Of a stretch of 29,214 nucleotides of DNA, positions 3,687 through 27,408 are shown in pieces. Under the pieces are notes generated by a model. It was not told where the DNA came from, ran no database searches, and worked only from the letters and a program-made list of their open reading frames with translations. Origin of the DNA: a virus; IMG/VR virus record IMGVR_UViG_3300044612_001808, positions 1 to 29,214 of that record. One strand, written 5' to 3'. Position 1 is the stretch's first letter, and each line of letters begins with the position of its first letter. Position numbers and translations under genes: made by a program.

Positions 3687-6221
3687 GTGGCAGGAAAGAA
3701 CCGGGCGGGATGCACATGCTGCGGCGAGTACGACTGCGACAACCCAGGCCAGTTTGCGGTGTCGATGAATTCCGGCCCTTGCATTGACTCCACCTCAATA
3801 TGCCGCCGCGCTGACGACGGGTTTGATTGCTGTGCGTGCGTTGTCATTTATCCGTTCACGTCCGGATGTCGCGAAATGCTCTGCTCCGGCACCGGCTTTC
3901 CCGACACGTTCGCCGCCCAATTTACTTTTTCCGGAACCGCTCAACACAATTACTACACGGCAGGATATGGTGCCGATGTTGTTCCGACTAGTGCAGCACC
4001 GCCAGCATCTTCCTCGACTTGCTGCTGCAACGGTCCGGAGTTGCAAGCCACGCTTGACTACGAGTTTACCAAGACAATCAATGTCAAGCCGATCATCACT
4101 TCGTTGCCCCTTTACGTCCGCGTTTGCGTTTACTTCACGGACACATTGACAACCGGCGACACTGCACCTGTAAAACGCTGGGTTGTGTATTCGGAGTATT
4201 GGAAGCGGTATTATGTTTCGTACTCAGGATACGGCAGTACAACCTACTCTCGGACTATTCCAGCCGTACCGCTATGTCATGAAAAATGGAACGTGGATTC
4301 CTGCGGATCCAACTGTACTCTTAGCCAGTTGACTTGCAACCCAAACGACCCTGACAATGTAAACTTCTGGATCGGCCAAGCCTACGAAGCCAAAGACATT
4401 CCGACGGCCAGGGTGAAAGTATTCAATACCAAACCTTCGGGCAGCATCGGATTTACCGATGAAGACCTTGGCGAAGACTATCAGATCTTCAATTGCAAAG
4501 CGATCGGTCAGCTGTACGCAGATACGCAGGTTGAGTTCGATATACCTGACGCGCCGTGCCTATGCGATGGAATCAACCCGCGAGATGTTTACAGTCCGAC
4601 TCTACGGAATCGCCCAAGATGCGCTACGGGTGTTCCGAGAGACTGTGAGTGCGGAGTAGTAGAAAACTTTGCTCCAGATTGCCCTCCGTTTGCTGGCGAT
4701 CCAGGCGTTACGCCATGCGATTTTATTAACGACAACCCATGCATACTAGATCCGGTGAATTTTGGCGGAAACGGAACTCTTTGCTGGGAGTTTACTCCGG
4801 TCATTCCAGATGCATTAGATTTTTGCTCTCCAAGATGTTACGGAGTAGGCGGGCCGAATGCGGATTGGTTCACTACCTGCTTAACTCCGAGCGCAAGTTC
4901 AATCGGTCAATACTGCGCAAACCCTTGCACTGGAACGGCTATTGAATTTCCGGATATATCCGCTGATGCGTTCGACATCTCGCAAGGAAATTGTTCTTCC
5001 CGCGATCCGCTAACTGGCGAGAAAGGATGCTGGGGTTATGGTCCGCGAGTTATTGGAACGAATGTTGGCACCTCTCCAATCAATTGCAACGTCATGCCAG
5101 TATGCGGGTTTGATCGGTTGATATTTCCCACCAACTGCTCGTACGTTGTCGGTGAGTGTCCAATAACTTGCTACGATAAATTCGGCGTTCCAACAACGCC
5201 TGATTCCTCATGTTTTAATTTTCTATGGCCTGATGGTGGATGTCCAGAAAGGCCATGTCTTTGCAGAGGGCTTCGTTGTGAAGGCAATTGCTACAAACAC
5301 GGCTACCAAGACTTTGCGCAACCTCCCGATGTGCAATCGTCGCAAAGACCGCTTGCACACCTCCAGATCAACTCCGTTTCCTACTCCGTGACGTGCAGCG
5401 TCGGAGATAAGGTACTAGTCCAAGCACCAAGCCCGACATGGGGAATCAATCTCGATTGGACGCAAGAGCCCGATCCGACAGATTGGACCACCATCGAATA
5501 CGACTGCACACCAAACACTTCGACGATCACCAGCAAGCAAATCACTGGTATTGCTGTCGCTGGCTCAATTCAACTACGCATCAATCCTGGAACCGGATCG
5601 GCTCCTGTCTTGTATTACAAGATTACCGCCACGCAACAAACCGGAACGGTCACTGGACCTCCGGGCGGAACGTGGACGGCAATTACCGCAACCACCACCA
5701 TCACCGTCAACAATAACGATTGGGTCAGCTTTTGCACTTACGACTCGACATTCAGCACCAGCTCACGAACCGCAACCGTTACCGCGAATCCAGGAGCTTG
5801 TGAAAGCGAACTTGATACTTTCACGTATCAATCGACATGCCCCGCGGACGTCACGCCATGCTCTGTCAACTGGACGACTACGACCTACTCCGGCGTGAAC
5901 GACGAAGCAAACATCGTCAGTCAGCAGATCACTTGCATCAACACTCCGATCACGCTGCAAATTCAACCAGGCAGCGGATCCATCCCAACACTCTACTACA
6001 AGATCACATCGACTCAGCAAACTGGCAACGTCACCGGAACACCAGACGGAACGTGGACTGCTGTTACAGCAAACACAAACATATCCGTTTCCAACAATCA
6101 GTGGCTTAGCTTTGTTGCGTTTACCAATCCGTCCAACAACGGAACGCGAACCGCAACAATCGTGAACATCAGCGATTCTAGTACCACACTCGACACGTTC
6201 AGCTATGTCAGCACAATCTAA
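3687..6221 (+). CDS. Large cysteine-rich virion protein with tandem C-terminal repeats
   Basis: The product has 844 residues. I chose the GTG at 3687 because GGGAGGAG lies eight bases upstream and it starts one base after the previous stop; the in-frame ATG at 3654 would overlap that gene. The first two thirds are extraordinarily rich in cysteine, with clusters such as 'CTCCGEYDCDNPG', 'STCCCNGPEL' and 'CPERPCLCRGLRCEGNC', suggesting a disulphide-stabilised extracellular surface protein. The C-terminus holds two tandem beta-sandwich-like repeats of about 117 residues, each with 'LYYKIT.TQQTG.VTG' and 'GTWTA.TA'. No membrane anchor is seen. Position and composition fit a tail-tip or adhesion protein. 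This is inferred, not recognised by family. Confidence 0.55.
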   Translation: MAGKNRAGCTCCGEYDCDNPGQFAVSMNSGPCIDSTSICRRADDGFDCCACVVIYPFTSGCREMLCSGTGFPDTFAAQFTFSGTAQHNYYTAGYGADVVPTSAAPPASSSTCCCNGPELQATLDYEFTKTINVKPIITSLPLYVRVCVYFTDTLTTGDTAPVKRWVVYSEYWKRYYVSYSGYGSTTYSRTIPAVPLCHEKWNVDSCGSNCTLSQLTCNPNDPDNVNFWIGQAYEAKDIPTARVKVFNTKPSGSIGFTDEDLGEDYQIFNCKAIGQLYADTQVEFDIPDAPCLCDGINPRDVYSPTLRNRPRCATGVPRDCECGVVENFAPDCPPFAGDPGVTPCDFINDNPCILDPVNFGGNGTLCWEFTPVIPDALDFCSPRCYGVGGPNADWFTTCLTPSASSIGQYCANPCTGTAIEFPDISADAFDISQGNCSSRDPLTGEKGCWGYGPRVIGTNVGTSPINCNVMPVCGFDRLIFPTNCSYVVGECPITCYDKFGVPTTPDSSCFNFLWPDGGCPERPCLCRGLRCEGNCYKHGYQDFAQPPDVQSSQRPLAHLQINSVSYSVTCSVGDKVLVQAPSPTWGINLDWTQEPDPTDWTTIEYDCTPNTSTITSKQITGIAVAGSIQLRINPGTGSAPVLYYKITATQQTGTVTGPPGGTWTAITATTTITVNNNDWVSFCTYDSTFSTSSRTATVTANPGACESELDTFTYQSTCPADVTPCSVNWTTTTYSGVNDEANIVSQQITCINTPITLQIQPGSGSIPTLYYKITSTQQTGNVTGTPDGTWTAVTANTNISVSNNQWLSFVAFTNPSNNGTRTATIVNISDSSTTLDTFSYVSTI
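5485..6218 (+). repeat. Two tandem domain repeats encoded in the 3' end of the cysteine-rich gene
   Basis: Copy one runs about 5485-5838 and copy two about 5872-6218. Both begin with 'WTT..Y', contain 'LYYKIT(A/S)TQQTG(T/N)VTG', and end with '(T/S)RTAT(V/I)....LDTF(T/S)Y'. The DNA has diverged more than the protein pattern, which points to an old duplication of a beta-sandwich domain. Confidence 0.8.
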
Positions 6222-9189: not shown

Positions 9190-9404
9190 TGGTGCCATTC
9201 TTGGTGCCGGGCACCATTATTCGTTCAGTCGCTTTGTTCGTTTTCTCAGTGTTTTCGTTAGTGGGCGGTACAGAACTCGAATCTGTGACCTCAACGATGT
9301 CAACGCAAAAAACATCGTATTTTCCTGCGTTTTCGCTGCTTTTTAATGGTTCCGTTGCTGTGGAAAGCGTGTCAAAATCAATCGCTTGGTGCCGTTTTGG
9401 TGCC
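9190..9404. other. attP-like region: tRNA core flanked by repeated TGGTGCC arm sites
   Basis: The heptamer TGGTGCC occurs at 9190-9196 and 9202-9208, with an inverted copy at 9210-9216. It occurs again at 9387-9393 and 9398-9404. The copies come in pairs 11-12 bases apart, on both sides of the tRNA-derived core at 9259-9303. Paired arm-type repeats on both sides of a core next to int are the architecture of a phage attP; attL or attR of an integrated prophage would keep only one arm. Binding by this integrase is inferred. Confidence 0.55.
9259..9303 (-). other. att core: 3' half of a tRNA-Val(GAC) gene
   Basis: Read on the minus strand, the sequence gives an anticodon loop TTGACAT (anticodon GAC), the 3' anticodon-stem strand CGTTG, variable loop AGGTC, the T arm ACAGA-TTCGAGT-TCTGT with a perfect 5-bp stem, the 3' acceptor strand ACCGCCC, discriminator A and CTA in place of CCA. 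The 5' half of the tRNA is absent: the bases before the loop (TTGCG) cannot pair with CGTTG, and no GGGCGGT occurs upstream. A block that starts exactly in the anticodon loop is typical of tyrosine-integrase att cores. It is not a functional tRNA gene. Confidence 0.75.
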
Positions 9405-9423
9405 ACCGACCCAGCATAAGCCC

Positions 9424-9533
9424 GTCCAACATTATCCACGGCTGACCCGTGGTTTCCCCAACATTCTCCCCGGCTCAGCCGAGGTTTCCCCGGTTTTCTC
9501 CCCGGCTCAGCCGAGGAGAATCTATCGTTCTGT
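9424..9533 (-). other. attC-like site 5, atypical
   Basis: On the minus strand this begins with R''-like ACAGAAC (9533-9527), six bases after the stop triplet of the preceding cassette gene, and ends with GTTGGAC (9430-9424), which fits the integron R' consensus GTTRRRY. ACAGAAC is the exact reverse complement of the GTTCTGT core that opens the same cassette. The outer arms pair imperfectly (ATTCTCC.CGGCTGA against ATTATCC.CGGCTGA). The centre is filled by a 32-base tandem repeat, so this site is longer and less regular than the other four. Confidence 0.55.
9426..9520. repeat. Three tandem 32-base repeats
   Basis: Copies lie at 9426-9457, 9458-9489 and 9490-9520. Each contains a dyad such as CCCGGCTCAGCCGAGG and the frame 'CCAACATT.TCC....TTTCC'. 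Neighbouring copies differ at several positions. The repeat resembles short palindromic repeats I associate with planctomycete genomes. That is from memory and needs a search. Confidence 0.8.
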
Positions 9534-9537
9534 TGAC

Positions 9538-9885
9538 TCAAGAAACCCACTCTGACCCGCAATGGTCGCAGGTCGCAATGAACGACAAGCCACCTTCGTA
9601 CACTCGGAGATTCTGTACCTCATGCTTGCCGCATTTCCCGCAAATCCACGGCAGCATCCTGATTGCAACTGTGTTCTTGGGCGCTTTGTCCGCTTTCTCC
9701 CGCAACCGTTGCAAGACGACTCGCAAGCACTTGTTCCACGCCTCCTTTCCCGTCAATGAATTACCATCCATAAAATATATCTGTGGTTCCTCCTGTTGCA
9801 TTGCTTTGACTACTTCCAATGCGTCTGACCAATAAGCAACAGAACAATCGGATGAACCCAAGTGCTCGTTACTGTCTTCTGCCAT
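9538..9885 (-). CDS. Cassette gene: small zinc-ribbon protein
   Basis: The product has 115 residues, with C-x2-C pairs near residues 82-85 (ICGKCGK) and 105-108 (ATCDHCGSEW), so a C-terminal zinc ribbon is likely. The N-terminal half is helical and acidic. The ATG is preceded by GAGGAGGAG at ideal spacing, and both lie between the two arms of attC-like site 4, so translation begins inside the recombination site. The gene occupies a complete cassette bounded by matching cores (GTTCTGT and ACAGAAC). Zinc-ribbon proteins of this size may bind nucleic acid or protein; no function can be assigned. Confidence 0.6.
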   Translation of the reverse strand: MAEDSNEHLGSSDCSVAYWSDALEVVKAMQQEEPQIYFMDGNSLTGKEAWNKCLRVVLQRLREKADKAPKNTVAIRMLPWICGKCGKHEVQNLRVYEGGLSFIATCDHCGSEWVS

Positions 9886-9927
9886 TGTTAATCTCCTCCT
9901 CGCACTGGGTTATCCTGTGCGTTATCG
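9839..9927 (-). other. attC-like site 4
   Basis: This 89-base site is bounded on the minus strand by CGATAAC (9927-9921) and GTTCTGT (9845-9839). The inner arms are GGATAACCCAGTGC and, after reverse complementing the other arm, GGATGAACCCAAGTGC. They pair perfectly except for one extra G and one extra A, which would be extrahelical. Extrahelical bases at these places are the hallmark of integron attC sites, where they select the strand that recombines. The terminal loop carries the ribosome-binding site and start codon of the next cassette gene. Confidence 0.85.
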
Positions 9928-10278
9928 TTAAATGTTTTTGCGACCCTGCTCGTTTTGACCGCGTTGACCAAAAGCTAAAGGGTAATAATAGAATGCTCCG
10001 TCTCCATCGTCCTCAATGGTTCCCATGACACAATCATTCCAATACACTTCCAACTTCCCTTCCAGCCCCAAGTCGTTATGCTCCGTTTTCTGAGGCCATT
10101 GTCGCAAATACTCCAGCAGTTCACCAACTGCTTTGCATTCAGCGTCGTTGTGCTGAAAACGAACATTAGCGATTGCGTCGTTGAATCGCTCCTCCCATCC
10201 GTCCTGTAGCTTCTTTACGCAATCCAAACACCAGCCCGAATCCAAATGGTCGCAATTCATTAAATGCGGCATTGTCAT
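9928..10278 (-). CDS. Cassette gene: small Cys/His protein
   Basis: The product has 116 residues. It opens with 'MNCDHLDSGWCLDCVKKL', a Cys/His cluster that probably binds zinc. An amphipathic helix follows, and then a beta-rich acidic C-terminus (YWNDCVMGTIEDDGDGAFYYYP). It starts ten bases after the R' core of attC-like site 3 and its stop lies at the R'' core of site 4, so it exactly fills a cassette. GGGTGA upstream is a weak ribosome-binding site; ATG codons at 10272 and 10260 are alternatives. The H..GWCLDCV motif recurs in small phage and integron-cassette proteins in my experience. The function is unknown. Confidence 0.6.
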   Translation of the reverse strand: MTMPHLMNCDHLDSGWCLDCVKKLQDGWEERFNDAIANVRFQHNDAECKAVGELLEYLRQWPQKTEHNDLGLEGKLEVYWNDCVMGTIEDDGDGAFYYYPLAFGQRGQNEQGRKNI

Positions 10279-10286
10279 AAATCACC

Positions 10287-10375
10287 CGATAACAAACCGT
10301 TGCACCCAAGCGGCGATCGGGTGCTCTATCTTGGAAACCATCACCCCGCCGCTGGGTGATGGGTAGGGGTTCAAC
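10287..10375 (-). other. attC-like site 3
   Basis: This 89-base site on the minus strand runs from GTTGAAC (10375-10369) to GTTATCG (10293-10287). Inner arms ATCACCCAGCGGCG and GCACCCAAGCGGCG pair, with the extra A extrahelical as in the other sites. The central part is almost identical to site 1 (the stretch 10302-10366 matches 11042-11106 with only a few differences), so the two share a recent origin. GTTGAAC is the reverse complement of the GTTCAAC that opens the same cassette. Confidence 0.85.
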
Positions 10376-10721
10376 GGACTTGGTGCGTCTCTCGCATACG
10401 GTGAATCCGCTCCACGATCTGGTTGACCGTCGTGTCCGCATCTTCGCTGTTGGTGATGTTCCGCTCAAACGAATCCATCATCTCGTGCAACTCGTCAACC
10501 TGTCGTTGCAATCGCTTTTGCTCGCGAGCCTGACCGTGCAAAAAAAGGATAAACGACGGGTACACGCCATTGACCAATGAATCCGCAATCACTGACGCAC
10601 CCGCCAATTGCGACAACACCCCAGGCTTTGGTTTCTCATTCGCGTTGCGAATTGTGTCCAACAATCCATCCAGTTGTCCCAACTGACCTTCTCTAAACTC
10701 GTCCCACTTGTAATCGCTCAT
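10371..10721 (-). CDS. Cassette gene: coiled-coil protein with a hydrophobic centre
   Basis: The product has 116 residues from ATG 10721, chosen because GGAG lies eight bases upstream; a TTG start at 10748 would lie inside the attC core. The N-terminus is polar and helical. A hydrophobic patch near residues 47-67 (ASVIADSLVNGVYPSFILFLH) may cross a membrane. The C-terminal half is a charged heptad-like coiled coil. A membrane-anchored coiled coil is a plausible shape; the function is unknown. It lies between attC-like sites 2 and 3, which carry the matching cores GTTCAAC and GTTGAAC. Confidence 0.6.
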   Translation of the reverse strand: MSDYKWDEFREGQLGQLDGLLDTIRNANEKPKPGVLSQLAGASVIADSLVNGVYPSFILFLHGQAREQKRLQRQVDELHEMMDSFERNITNSEDADTTVNQIVERIHRMRETHQVR

Positions 10722-10739
10722 GTCAATACTCCAAAATCC

Positions 10740-10829
10740 GTTGAACAAAACAATGCACCGAAGTCGCGAACATGCCGTTTTTGAAATGGTAAATCAACCG
10801 TCGCGACTCGGTGATTGTCAACGTTATGC
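10740..10829 (-). other. attC-like site 2
   Basis: This 90-base site on the minus strand runs from GCATAAC (10829-10823) to GTTCAAC (10746-10740). Arms ACAATCACCGAGTCGCGA and ACAATGCACCGAAGTCGCGA pair completely except for one extra G and one extra A, in the same relative places as in sites 1 and 4. Its stem sequence differs from sites 1 and 3, so it comes from a different cassette source while keeping the same geometry. Confidence 0.88.
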
Positions 10830-10831
10830 CG

Positions 10832-11026
10832 TTACAAAAGCATGTCTATGTTGTCGTTTCGGTCGCGTTCCTCGCGCCATAGTCGCTCGGCTTCTGCTAA
10901 CTGCGCTTCAAAACGTCCAGGGCGTTTTTCGGCCAAAATTCGCAACCGATAGGATTTTCGCCACAGAACTGATTCCCTTGGCTTTCCTACGTTAAACGGT
11001 GGATCGTCCTCACGCCAAATACCCAT
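10832..11026 (-). CDS. Cassette gene: small charged protein
   Basis: The product has 64 residues from ATG 11026; a GTG at 11050 would start inside the attC site and is less likely. It is rich in Arg, Glu and Trp and strongly helical in its second half (LAEAERLWREERDRND), with no membrane segment or metal site. It begins two bases after the GTTATGC core of site 1 and its stop lies two bases before the GCATAAC core of site 2. That is the compact layout of a promoterless integron cassette. The function is unknown. Confidence 0.6.
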   Translation of the reverse strand: MGIWREDDPPFNVGKPRESVLWRKSYRLRILAEKRPGRFEAQLAEAERLWREERDRNDNIDMLL

Positions 11027-11027
11027 T

Positions 11028-11118
11028 GCATAACAATCCCATGCACCCAAGCGGCGATCGGGTGCTCTATCATCGAAACCATCACCCCGCCGCTGGGTGA
11101 TGGGTTGAGGTGTTATCG
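11028..11118 (-). other. attC-like site 1
   Basis: This 91-base site on the minus strand runs from CGATAAC (11118-11112), which contains the TAA stop of the preceding gene, to GTTATGC (11034-11028). Arms CCCATCACCCAGCGGCG and CCCATGCACCCAAGCGGCG pair with an extra G and an extra A left over. The outer ATAACA and TGTTAT also pair. Two small internal hairpins (for example CATCACCC with GGGTGATG) lie in the centre. Confidence 0.88.
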
Positions 11119-11385
11119 TTGGATACCCAAGCAGTCCTTAATAGCAGACTGGCATGAAGAAAAACCGTCTCTGTAAGCTCTGCGGTACACCTGCTCGACT
11201 AGTATTCCAATTTCCATCGCAAAGTGTTCGCCATCTTCAATCGACTTGACATGCACCGGGCAATCCATCTCGCGACCATTGATGACGGTATCCACCCAAA
11301 AATGTTTTTCCTCGCCGCCAATCCGGGTTCTCACCATTGCTTTTTCGCCAGCCATTGCTTCTCTCTCTGGATTTTGTCGGGACAT
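11113..11385 (-). CDS. Small protein upstream of the first attC-like site
   Basis: The product has 90 residues and no recognised family. It is mixed alpha/beta by eye, with 'FWVDTVINGREMDCPVHV' as a likely beta hairpin and a C-terminal helix. AGGGG precedes ATG 11385; ATG 11355 is an alternative start. Its stop is part of the R'' core of site 1, so it ends like a cassette gene. However, no GTTATCG partner core is found upstream (the nearest similar word is GTTCGAC at 11398-11404), so it is unclear whether this is the first cassette or a phage gene into whose 3' end the array was inserted. Confidence 0.5.
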   Translation of the reverse strand: MSRQNPEREAMAGEKAMVRTRIGGEEKHFWVDTVINGREMDCPVHVKSIEDGEHFAMEIGILVEQVYRRAYRDGFSSCQSAIKDCLGIQR

Positions 11386-11442: not shown

Positions 11443-11570
11443 TGGATCGGGCAGGATTCGAACCTGCATGTTGCACACCGTTCTGACCTCCAGCGACGTA
11501 CTGAAACGACTTAGGCTGACGGTAGGTAGCATCTTCGTTTGTCAGCGTGTTCCCACCACGCGGCCGATCC
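11443..11570 (-). tRNA. 128-nt tRNA-like element, non-canonical
   Basis: On the minus strand, acceptor strands GGATCGG and CCGATCC pair over 7 bp. The 3' end has a perfect T arm (GCAGG-TTCGAAT-CCTGC) and discriminator A. GCGT-GGTGGGAAC-ACGC forms a D-like arm. No normal anticodon arm fits: a GCTGAC/GTCAGC helix closes a 20-nt loop, followed by 47 further bases before the T arm. A 5-bp arm TTCAG/CTGGA with a 7-nt loop exists there but lacks U33. The length is far above the usual 73-95 nt. It could be a tRNA with an insertion, a decayed gene or a tRNA mimic. CCA is not encoded (TTG). Confidence 0.45.
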
Positions 11571-13083: not shown

Positions 13084-13476
13084 ATGTTGGTTGTCAATCG
13101 TGATGTCGATGAGTCGGTAAAGATCGGACCTGATGTGTGCGTCCGGTTGTTGGCGGTGAATGGAAAGAGGGCCAAGCTGGGGATCGAAGCTCCTCGCGAT
13201 GTGTTGGTTCTGCGATCGGAGCTTGAGCAGCCAGCGGCTGCTCTGCAGGTCGATCATGCGAAGTACGCATCGGAGTTGATGTACTGCTTGCGACTGTTGC
13301 TGGGTTGCACGCATGATCCGGGATCTTCGAATTCACGAGTTGATTTGCGAGGGGTTCCGAAAGGGTGGATCTCGCAGGCTTATCTGGTCATCGACAACTA
13401 CGAGTCCGCAATGGGGTTGCCGACGATCGAAGAGGTTCGCCAAGGTATTGCAGATCGCGAAGGAGCATCCACATGA
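13084..13476 (+). CDS. csrA: CsrA-family RNA-binding protein with a C-terminal extension
   Basis: Residues 1-47 are a CsrA/RsmA domain: 'MLVVNRDVDESVKIG', 'VRLLAVNGKRAKLGIEAPRDV' and 'LVLRSE' align with the family, including the GIxAP motif and R44, which contacts RNA. CsrA dimers bind A-N-GGA in mRNA leaders and repress or stabilise messages. The protein has 130 residues, about twice the usual 60-70; residues 48-130 form an extension of unknown family (with 'YCLRLLLGCTHDPG' and 'GVPKGWISQAYLVIDNYESA'). The leader's AAGGAG could allow autoregulation. A phage copy could retune host translation. The stop overlaps the next gene by ATGA. Confidence 0.85.
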   Translation: MLVVNRDVDESVKIGPDVCVRLLAVNGKRAKLGIEAPRDVLVLRSELEQPAAALQVDHAKYASELMYCLRLLLGCTHDPGSSNSRVDLRGVPKGWISQAYLVIDNYESAMGLPTIEEVRQGIADREGAST

Positions 13477-13809: not shown

Positions 13810-13886
13810 ACGAGGGTAGTTTAATCCAGGCAAAACAGCGGTTGCTCCCTATGTCCGCGTTGCAGGTTCAACTCCTGCCCCTCGTT
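13810..13886 (+). tRNA. tRNA-Gly(CCC)-like gene with an abnormal anticodon stem
   Basis: This 77-nt element has acceptor ACGAGGG/CCCTCGT (7 bp), D arm GTTT-AATCCAGGCA-AAAC and T arm GCAGG-TTCAACT-CCTGC. The discriminator is T, as in bacterial tRNA-Gly. The anticodon loop would be CTCCCTA with anticodon CCC and U33. Its stem is 7 bp instead of 5, with one T-T mismatch and two G-T pairs (GCGGTTG/TGTCCGC), and the variable loop is only GTT. CCA is not encoded. It may be a decaying or specialised phage tRNA. Confidence 0.5.
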
Positions 13887-15317: not shown

Positions 15318-15366
15318 TCGATCGGCGACAAAGGGCTGTTAGCGGGTTCGAATCCCGCACGATCGA
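15318..15366 (+). other. Truncated tRNA-like hairpin
   Basis: GCGGG-TTCGAAT-CCCGC is a perfect T arm, preceded by GGGCTGTTA and followed by A and CGATCGA. The outer TCGATCG (15318-15324) pairs over 7 bp with CGATCGA (15360-15366). Only 17 bases separate the 5' acceptor-like strand from the T arm, so there is no room for D and anticodon arms. It is either a tRNA minihelix relic or a fragment captured at a recombination junction. No alternative 5' acceptor is found upstream. Confidence 0.5.
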
Positions 15367-15404
15367 TTGGGTGTGGCGGAAGTTTTGCTACAAGGAGGTG
15401 CCGT

Positions 15405-25968: not shown

Positions 25969-27408
25969 ATGCCAACTACAAACGGCAATCGAAGAATTTT
26001 GGACTTGAAGCGGTGGGAGTTCTGCTCGCTTTACCCGCAAACCTCGAGCGCAACCGCACATTTTATCGTGTCGTCGCGTCATTACCGCCAGCAGCAATTG
26101 CTTATCGCAAGTAATACTGCGGCGAACCTGTACAACCCAGCCGAGGACGCATGGCTTTCTTTGCCTTCTCCGGCTCTTGCTGGCACGTTTGGTGCGGGGG
26201 CTTGTGGAGTGGCCGGTTCGTTCTCGACCGGAACTACTGTGGCAGCGTCCAACCTGACGGCCACTGCCGGAACCACGACCAGTATCACGACCAATCAAAC
26301 GCTTGCTCGCGACTTGCGGGGCTACTCGGTTTACTTTGTCGGCGGAACCAATGCGGGCAAGCTCAAGACGATTGCCTCAAACACAATCGGAACGAATGCC
26401 GTCATTACGTTTGAGGGTGCGGAGGCAGTCGCATTCGACAACACGTCGCAATATCGTCTCAAGACTCCAGTGTTTTATGTGGTCGGTGCGGGAACGCTGG
26501 CCTCGGCCAGTTTCCGAAAATACTGCTTCGCTACAAACTCTTGGACAACGCTGAGTCAAACTGGCCTACCAGCGTCAATTGGAACTGATGGAAAGCTCGT
26601 TTCTACTCCAGCTTGGATTGATACCGGCTTCAAGTCCTTTGCCACCGGGACCGCAACATCGGGCGCAGCGGCAACGCTTACCAACACTGGAAAGAACTGG
26701 ACGGTGAATCAGTGGACGAATTCTCAGATTCGAATCACTGCGGGGACCGGAGCAGGGCAGATTCGAACGGTAGCGAGCAATACTTCGACAGTGATTACGG
26801 TTTCAAGCAACTGGACGACGAACCCAGACGCGACATCGCAATATAGCCTCGAAGGAAATGATGATTTCATTTACTTCATAGGCAACGGTGCGGTCACGCT
26901 CTATCGGTATTCGATTGTGGGCAACACTTGGTCAACGCTGACTCCTGTTGCTGCGCGTGCTGCCGCCCCCGGTGCTGGAATGTCAGGACACTGGATTCAT
27001 TCCGTTTCGGCAAGCGACTGGACCAACGAAAACGCAATCCTGAACGGGCGTTATATCTACAGCTTTCGCGGGGCAAACACAGCTGAACTGCACCGCTACG
27101 ACATTGCCGGTAACACTTGGGCCACGATTACTTGGGCCCCCGGTATTGAAGCCATGTCGACAGGGACAAAGTGGTGCTACAACAAGGACCGGCTCTACAT
27201 GCAGCGTGATAATACTGGTCGCTGGTTCTGCTTTGACTTTGCGGAGCATGCAATGCAGCCTTGGAGCACGATGCTATACCCACAAGGCGCAGGTATTGTG
27301 GGCGACACTTGTTTCGATGTGACGTACAAAGACGGATCTACCGAAATCGATTACATTTATATGGTATTGAACACCTCCAACGTCATGCTTCGGCAAATGG
27401 TGATCTAA
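25969..27408 (+). CDS. Beta-propeller/Kelch-like virion protein
   Basis: In this 479-residue protein, repeated units of the form 'Y.(Y/F)....NTW(S/A)T(L/I)' occur at least three times (FATNSWTTLSQ, YSIVGNTWSTL, YDIAGNTWATI), spaced as in Kelch or bulb-like beta propellers. Its leader ATAGGAAACCAA is shared with the gene at 2329. Phage proteins of this type are surface-exposed and probably bind host glycans or proteins. There is no signal peptide. The next gene's ATG overlaps its stop by one base. Confidence 0.65.
   Translation: MPTTNGNRRILDLKRWEFCSLYPQTSSATAHFIVSSRHYRQQQLLIASNTAANLYNPAEDAWLSLPSPALAGTFGAGACGVAGSFSTGTTVAASNLTATAGTTTSITTNQTLARDLRGYSVYFVGGTNAGKLKTIASNTIGTNAVITFEGAEAVAFDNTSQYRLKTPVFYVVGAGTLASASFRKYCFATNSWTTLSQTGLPASIGTDGKLVSTPAWIDTGFKSFATGTATSGAAATLTNTGKNWTVNQWTNSQIRITAGTGAGQIRTVASNTSTVITVSSNWTTNPDATSQYSLEGNDDFIYFIGNGAVTLYRYSIVGNTWSTLTPVAARAAAPGAGMSGHWIHSVSASDWTNENAILNGRYIYSFRGANTAELHRYDIAGNTWATITWAPGIEAMSTGTKWCYNKDRLYMQRDNTGRWFCFDFAEHAMQPWSTMLYPQGAGIVGDTCFDVTYKDGSTEIDYIYMVLNTSNVMLRQMVI

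Follow-up and report, generated by a model that had tools for sequence, protein, structure and literature searches.

An attC cassette array with inverted genes and an attI-like flank in the lysogeny region of phages that probably infect Planctomycetota

How does an array of integron-type gene cassettes stand in the lysogeny region of a phage, and which recombinase would move its cassettes? The question is raised by IMG/VR record IMGVR_UViG_3300044612_001808, whose entire contig of 29,214 bases is the stretch analysed here (the window). It derives from a temperate tailed phage, with an integrase, an excisionase, a tRNA-type attP and phage replication genes, and the hosts of this virus family are probably planctomycete bacteria. 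On the minus strand, the excisionase gene (xis, 11839-11588) is followed by an array of attC sites with four small open reading frames (ORFs), and then by the integrase gene (int, 9143-8100). An initial annotation had proposed an integron-type cassette array in this place, between attP/int and an excisionase-like gene and on one strand with them. Gene matches and coordinates bear out that position, and related contigs join the array to phage DNA on both sides: L005 has 99.94% identity across 5.2 kb that run from the replication genes to within the array, and two phage records from two metagenomes (G014 and G016, 99.87% identity over 36.1 kb) connect such an array to int. The number of attC sites and the orientation of the genes had to be revised. 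The explanation that we favour, and consider quite likely, is that the phage carries an attI-like acceptor and a cluster of attC sites lacking integron integrases (CALIN), with gene-inverted cassettes that are read from the lysogeny operon and shuffled in trans by a host integron integrase (IntI).

Four attC sites lie on the minus strand, at 11118-11028, 10829-10740, 10375-10287 and 9927-9839. They were scored with two covariance models. The first, R1, comprises 34 sites from the window (its four included), related phages and one planctomycete metagenome-assembled genome (MAG). Because R1 contained the window's own sites, a second model, R2, was made from 85 chromosomal Planctomycetota sites and no phage site, the sites themselves having been gathered by R1. 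The attC of cassette 1, at the xis-side end of the array, scores 74.5 bits with R1 and 51.9 bits with R2; the corresponding values are 83.2 and 77.6 bits for cassette 2, 63.7 and 36.8 bits for cassette 3, and 69.4 and 49.8 bits for cassette 4, whose attC is of a start-codon type described below. With filters off, the R2 E-values of the four, from the highest score to the lowest, are 4.3e-18, 1.8e-11, 6.2e-11 and 1.4e-7, and the remainder of the window, as well as the attCs on the opposite strand, stays below 16 bits (best match elsewhere, 12 bits). The stems covary: within the R1 set, 94.6% of cells are paired and 161 cells are altered on both sides, against at most 42% in every slid control. 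The attCs fold with R and L boxes and extrahelical bases, as those of integron cassettes do, and the extrahelical G and A pointed out in the initial annotation are found unpaired on the + strand in folded sites 1-3. Of the five attC-like sites that it had counted, four score as attC (64-83 bits with R1, 36.8-77.6 bits with R2). The fifth, at 9424-9539, is matched by neither model and was rejected; it holds repeats of 32-nt period with hairpins, beside the last core at 9533-9527.

The 7-mers that open and close each gene body are reverse complements in four cases out of four (GTTATGC/GCATAAC, GTTCAAC/GTTGAAC, GTTATCG/CGATAAC and GTTCTGT/ACAGAAC). A search for such chains across the whole contig is too permissive, as chains of four arise by chance in 29 kb, and significance was therefore taken from the 2-kb region and from permutation across cassettes. 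In 500 first-order resamples of the 2-kb region, a chain of four complementary cores never arose. Among related phages, exact core complementarity is present in 45 of 56 cassettes (permutation mean 8.8, maximum 18; 2000 permutations), in a second contig set in 17 of 18, and in the planctomycete MAG G013 in 42 of 49. Judged from their ends, the complementary cores show that the gene bodies once were circles. This sign, on which the initial annotation had leaned, thus holds in the window and in its relatives, but it cannot tell which attC a gene owns, because either reading puts both 7-mers in one gene body. Since both orientations predict it, we rejected it as discriminating evidence.

Array edges, relatives and extrahelical bases agree on ownership, and together they show that the cassette unit is an attC plus the gene downstream of it. 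Beyond the last attC of 15 out of 18 phage arrays stands one more gene, which closes with the complement of its own opening core even though no further attC follows (0.85 arrays expected by chance). Cassette 4 of the window is such a case: its body (9527-9839, minus strand) ends in the core ACAGAAC (9533-9527), complementary to the opening GTTCTGT, and no attC follows. The mirror case needed by the canonical unit, a body ahead of the first attC, occurs in 5 of 27, three of these five being one near-identical phage group. When the same body is found in different phages, the type of its upstream attC is kept in 5 of 8 comparisons (base rate 5.8%, binomial p 3e-5) and that of its downstream attC in 0 of 4. 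The extra base of a canonical attC lies in the L'' arm, which adjoins the owning gene, away from the crossover core. In the folded + strand of the phage sites, the unpaired G and A sit in the arm adjoining the start of the downstream gene, which therefore would be the owner. The canonical gene-attC unit, in which a gene owns the attC behind it, as the initial annotation had read the array, was rejected on the edges and the shared bodies; in the window, genes are not followed at their 3' ends by attCs of their own.

This unit bears on how the genes face. In phages, 59 of 70 cassettes have their longest ORF on the attC+ strand, compared with 4 of 65 from other Planctomycetota and 12 of 52 from G013; in these two host sets it is on the opposite strand in 61 of 65 and 40 of 52 cassettes. 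Taken together with the attC-plus-downstream-gene unit, these strands make the host arrays canonical and the phage genes inverted. Phage gene bodies are also shorter, with a median of 285 nt against 510 nt in G013 (Mann-Whitney p 1e-11).

Some of the attCs carry a start codon, which we defined as at least four consecutive letters of AGGAGG, then ATG, in the hairpin loop. Such sites make up 22 of 69 distinct phage attCs, 5 of 64 in G013 and 1 of 85 in other hosts. In 25 of 27 of them (phage and G013), the frame remains open for 120 nt or more beyond the core, the remaining two sit at the ends of contigs, and wherever the next attC is known the frame runs near to the end of the body. When the same attCs were combined with bodies from behind start-less attCs, on average 7.2 and at most 16 of 27 frames were open (2000 trials). 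There are two phase classes: body swaps keep the frame open in 306 of 320 cases within a class and in 44 of 382 across classes. The second contig set adds 8 open frames out of 8 evaluable, giving 33 complete cases in all, every one open. In one protein, an attC leader of 14 residues is followed directly, at residue 15, by the start of the Pfam Lar domain, no start codon intervening. The phage record G015 has a homologue of a G003 cassette gene outside an array, with its own longer N-terminus; the comparison suggests that the attC leader replaces the native start.

The window has one site of this kind. attC4 contains GAGGAGGAG, then ATG at 9885, and the frame extends to 9538 as ORF 4 (9538-9885, minus strand; 115 amino acids), which consists of the leader MAEDSNEHLGSSDCS and then the cassette body. 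AGGAGG stands just ahead of the ATG, the frame is open across the core, and the protein has zinc-ribbon-like cysteines. Four small ORFs are indeed present, as first annotated, but it had been overlooked that site 4 holds the start of gene 4. Selection on the leader peptide was considered and rejected, since codon changes are mostly non-synonymous.

At the int side of the array, the flank at 9403-9526 consists of imperfect direct repeats of 32-nt period beside the insertion point. On the canonical strand, the sequence directly ahead of an array's first G|TT is conserved within two phage groups, and its place is that of attI. In the alpha group (eight contigs: G014/G016, G001, G008, L083, L085, L087 and L088) it consists of tandem repeats of about 27 nt; the beta group, with 32-nt-period repeats, comprises the window, G003 and G009. 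The window flank has 71% identity over 128 nt with that of the G003 array, and the G009 flank is similar. As a forward test, a 20-mer of the alpha flank was scanned against IMG/VR; it retrieved two new contigs (L094 and L095), both with an adjoining cassette array, and the L095 cassette joins at a different point of the alpha repeat. Two degenerate patterns written for attI-like flanks gave no match, the patterns being too strict. Separately, beside a second host intI, contig L058 (G013:C400) has at 4882-5088 the short repeats AATATATCCTGG and CACATAACCTAG, which resemble parts of the alpha flank, and a host source of the phage attI-like site in such repeats is possible.

The locus is fixed and its contents change. 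The window integrase shares 88-90% identity with the integrases of L016, L017 and L018, and these contigs have arrays of 5 to 9 cassettes at the same place. An excisionase scan returned 11 loci; all nine close relatives (at least 74% identity) with enough sequence behind xis have attCs there, a count that leaves out L104 (which ends at the contig end) and L105 (a distant match). With the window, 10 of 10 close xis relatives, which the initial annotation had thought worth comparing for presence or absence of the array, have an attC array behind xis, and their cassettes differ. G014 and G016 have their last four cassettes in common and differ upstream of one attC. The same cassette bodies are found in unrelated phages, beside unrelated neighbours, and arrays of the same attC type stand elsewhere among phage genes in G001, G008, G009, G010 and G012.

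Two further observations concern array positions. Between the helicase and primase genes of G005 (L053, 9433-10736) there is a second small cassette cluster, in which one ORF has the attC-type leader MSADSNDVFVQSVV and one attC lies at 10085-10174; cassettes thus appear to enter a second site of the same phage lineage. Just before the array of G010 (L045 11300-12145, about 26300-27145 of the record), long runs of GGCATGGC/GGCAGGGC-like short repeats flank an ORF.

No IntI gene was found above the cut-off of 265 in the window or in 15 related phage records. With four attCs and no such gene in the window or these fragment records, the array has the composition of a CALIN, for which two attCs without an intI suffice, and lacks the intI gene of a complete integron. 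The phage integrase (8100-9143, minus strand; 347 amino acids; Pfam Phage_integrase 1.1e-13, phrog_1 8e-32) reaches 25 bits with the IntI model TIGR02249 and is not an integron integrase. The initial annotation had pointed to the rest of the genome and to the host as places for an intI: the phage side yielded none, and the planctomycete MAG G013 (L014, accession VGZN) encodes IntI twice (463 and 401 bits) and has at least 74 attCs. Across Planctomycetota, attCs of this type occur in 34 of 294 genomes. In INPHARED the array has no DNA match, and integrases there are only distant, the best-covered one being 26% identical.

G013 also contains, as a minority of its integron, inverted cassettes of phage type that share leaders or attC types with the phages: L064 (1441, 1841), L059 (3644), L060 (2655), L014 (2088) and L066 (9035). 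A further body, L065 1204, has 67% protein identity with a G001 phage cassette. In G013:C446 (L057), the host intI reads toward its array, an atypical arrangement described for Treponema.

In the explanation that we favour, the phage carries a putative attI-like acceptor beside int and four attached cassettes, and no integron integrase. Each cassette is a normal one viewed from the other side, its gene being inverted in comparison with those of bacterial cassettes. IntI is probably supplied by an infected or lysogenic planctomycete cell that has an integron, so that the attI-like site recombines with attCs; the chromosomal enzyme would insert and remove cassettes at the attI-like site and at the attCs, as with CALINs, and new cassettes would come in beside int. 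Through the inversion the genes share the direction of xis and int, and their transcription probably comes from the leftward lysogeny operon; host cassettes, by contrast, are transcribed from a promoter on the attI side. At start-codon attCs, translation is predicted to start in the hairpin loop, giving each such gene a leader of roughly 12-20 residues. Cassettes facing the wrong way would be silent in the lysogeny operon, which would explain the difference in orientation between phage and host. The sequences establish what the attCs are, where the units end, the inversion, the start-codon frames, the fixed position and the exchange of bodies; the enzyme, the role of the attI-like flank, the promoter and a benefit to the phage are inferred.

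The alternative that survives best is a frozen array, acquired long ago and now altered only by phage mosaicism and homologous recombination between similar attCs. We regard this as unlikely: body and attC are sometimes decoupled, and some relatives (G014/G016, L088/L091) share long stretches of array, but a complementary core persists at the free end in 15 of 18 arrays, 45 of 56 and 17 of 18 cassettes still have complementary cores, and one body can stand beside unrelated neighbours in different phages. An ordinary captured CALIN, with canonical cassettes and an attC of its own behind each gene, is improbable to a marked degree. Phage CALINs are known (PMC9892861), and core complementarity of 4/4 would be expected of one; against this, the fifth attC that it requires is missing, the array edges fit the opposite unit, copies of one body do not share a downstream attC, and in host arrays of this attC type the genes occupy the opposite strand. 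We give similarly little credence to shuffling by a recombinase of the phage, be it its tyrosine integrase or another enzyme, in place of host IntI. The array does adjoin int in the window, L016 and L017, and the phage records are without intI; yet the phage integrase matches the IntI family weakly (25 bits, in the C-terminal part), the arrays of G001, G008 and G009 are surrounded by replication or other phage genes, no integrase being visible in their vicinity, and the attCs match those of bacterial IntI arrays. Fusion of a chromosomal integron piece to a phage contig during assembly or binning, which the metagenomic origin of the contigs and the host type of the attCs might suggest, can be practically dismissed, as the near-identical G014 and G016 from different metagenomes have the array in the same place by int, 10 of 10 xis relatives have it, and phage cassette genes are inverted and shorter relative to chromosomal ones.

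Several points weigh against the favoured explanation. Two host copies of one cassette have identical bodies (0 of 276 nt differ) and attCs that differ at several positions, and in L083 and L084 the attC core is identical while the bodies are 11% apart; a body and its upstream attC are thus not always inherited together, and a second route of attC change exists. The arrays of G014 and G016 diverge at their xis side, which simple entry beside int does not account for, so exchange between attCs (attC x attC) or deletion probably takes place as well. The phage flanks have no likeness beyond short words to the attI region of the G013:C446 IntI array, which is why we term them attI-like only. Leader codons show no visible purifying selection, and the start and frame may thus matter more than the peptide. 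The tRNA attB that would match the attP core was not found in planctomycete genomes (0 of 294). The phage contigs are fragments, and these phages may have an intI elsewhere. The phages were found mainly through one attC sequence or through integrase and excisionase, and others may differ; the orientation counts depend on the longest ORF.

The remaining cassette genes of the window, all on the minus strand, are ORF 1 (cassette 1, 10832-11026; 64 amino acids), ORF 2 (cassette 2, 10371-10721; 116 amino acids) and ORF 3 (cassette 3, 9928-10278; 116 amino acids). None of ORFs 1-3 has a convincing family, and ORF 4 has a weak zinc-ribbon-like match. The body of cassette 3 has 91% identity with a cassette of phage L083, whose upstream attC differs. 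Among 57 phage cassette proteins, Pfam recognizes two GIY-YIG proteins, one Lar restriction-alleviation protein, one HTH protein and two domains of unknown function, and 23 PHROG families are matched once each; PADLOC gave no match for these 57. A set of 57 host cassette proteins yields 9 PHROG and 29 Pfam families, including Mrr, Shedu and CAP12/TIR-type genes.

Around the array, the probable attP core (9261-9293, minus strand) is recognized by sequence identity with the 3' end of a tRNA gene, which has the same spacing to int in the window, L016, L017 and L018. The xis gene encodes an excisionase/HTH_17 protein (HTH_17 2.5e-12; phrog_2907 excisionase 8.6e-9). Ahead of the array, ORF 0 (11113-11385, minus strand; 90 amino acids) is not a recognizable cassette: no attC precedes it and there is no core at its start. 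Between it and xis lies a tRNA-like element of about 128 nt (11443-11570, minus strand), with acceptor arms GGATCGG/CCGATCC and a T arm. Similar elements occur in L045 (12403-12533), behind xis in L099 and L100, and in L016 (about 6003-6098); all are of 96-130 nt, with 7-bp acceptor arms, a T arm and an abnormal middle. Their acceptor pairs change on both sides between phages (GGATCGG/CCGATCC in the window, GGTTCTG/CAGAACC in L045), and the L045 (G010) element is inside a cassette, with an attC on either side. ARAGORN called no tRNA-like element in the window, and a default Rfam scan of the whole window gave no match reaching the gathering score. A tRNA-like gene at 13810-13886 (+), which escaped both of these, scores 39.7 bits with Rfam tRNA (gathering 29) and has an enlarged anticodon region. 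Another motif resembling a tRNA 3' end, GCGGGATTCGAACCCGC, lies at 15319-15367 and is perhaps an old attachment site. A phage CsrA/RsmA-type regulator, matched in most relatives, is encoded at 13084-13476 (+; Pfam CsrA 1.1e-14).

Integrons have been viewed as a bacterial platform, parts of which phages carry now and then. In the lineage described here, an integron-like array is a permanent component of the lysogeny region, and the viruses appear to rely on an enzyme that is not encoded by them; the array thereby offers a way to test directly whether phages make use of host IntI for exchanging accessory genes. We would put at slightly better than even the broader proposition that Planctomycetota phages have a cassette economy of their own, with an integrase-less attI-like acceptor, host IntI acting in trans, a dedicated pool of short gene-inverted cassettes, and attCs that serve as translation starts. 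Host integrons hold a minority of phage-type cassettes (about 12 of 52 in G013), and the pools would thus exchange; gene orientation may then serve as a marker of phage-type cassettes in bacterial integrons. With a Lar-type cassette on the phage side and Mrr, Shedu and CAP12/TIR-type cassettes on the host side, defence and counter-defence may trade in the same site-specific currency. A recombination site that gives a start codon and leader peptide would also change how cassette boundaries are annotated.

How does this arrangement compare with known systems? The initial annotation had known of no described phage family with such an array in this position, a surprise that is only partly justified. 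Integrons and CALINs in phages have been published, but this arrangement is not among them: Qi et al. (2023) reported 3 integrons, one In0 and 17 CALINs in 10,705 phage genomes, and several of the phage attCs were recombined by IntI1 in an attI1 assay (PMC9892861). Their CALINs likewise combine attCs and small genes with no intI; they are scattered cases, two arrays being described as structured like bacterial ones (PMC9892861), whereas here the array holds one locus in a lineage and has inverted genes, attI-like end repeats and start-codon attCs. In the open-access papers that we searched, we found no description of rule-like gene inversion, start-codon attCs, an attI-like site without intI or an array fixed in a phage lineage, and the inversion, the start-codon attCs, the attI-like acceptor and the fixed locus appear to be new. 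The sedentary chromosomal integrons of Planctomycetota (G013 and others) share the attC family, the core rule and the unit boundary with the phage arrays, and differ in having IntI and attI (seen in G013), canonical gene direction, longer genes and rare start-codon attCs. ORF-11 of attI1, in class 1 integrons, comes closest as a precedent for translation signals in an integron site and is likewise a case of a recombination site with Shine-Dalgarno and ATG that aids translation of a cassette gene; it starts in attI, stops in the core site and acts by re-initiation (PMC8876359), whereas the phage start lies in attC and its frame is fused into the gene. Finally, an unusual relative orientation is also known from Treponema-type integrons, with which the Blastopirellula intI clusters and in which intI is transcribed toward attI (PMC3607928), as the intI of G013:C446 also points toward its array. 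In those integrons it is intI that is turned relative to the array; in the phage array it is the genes inside the cassettes that are turned relative to attC.

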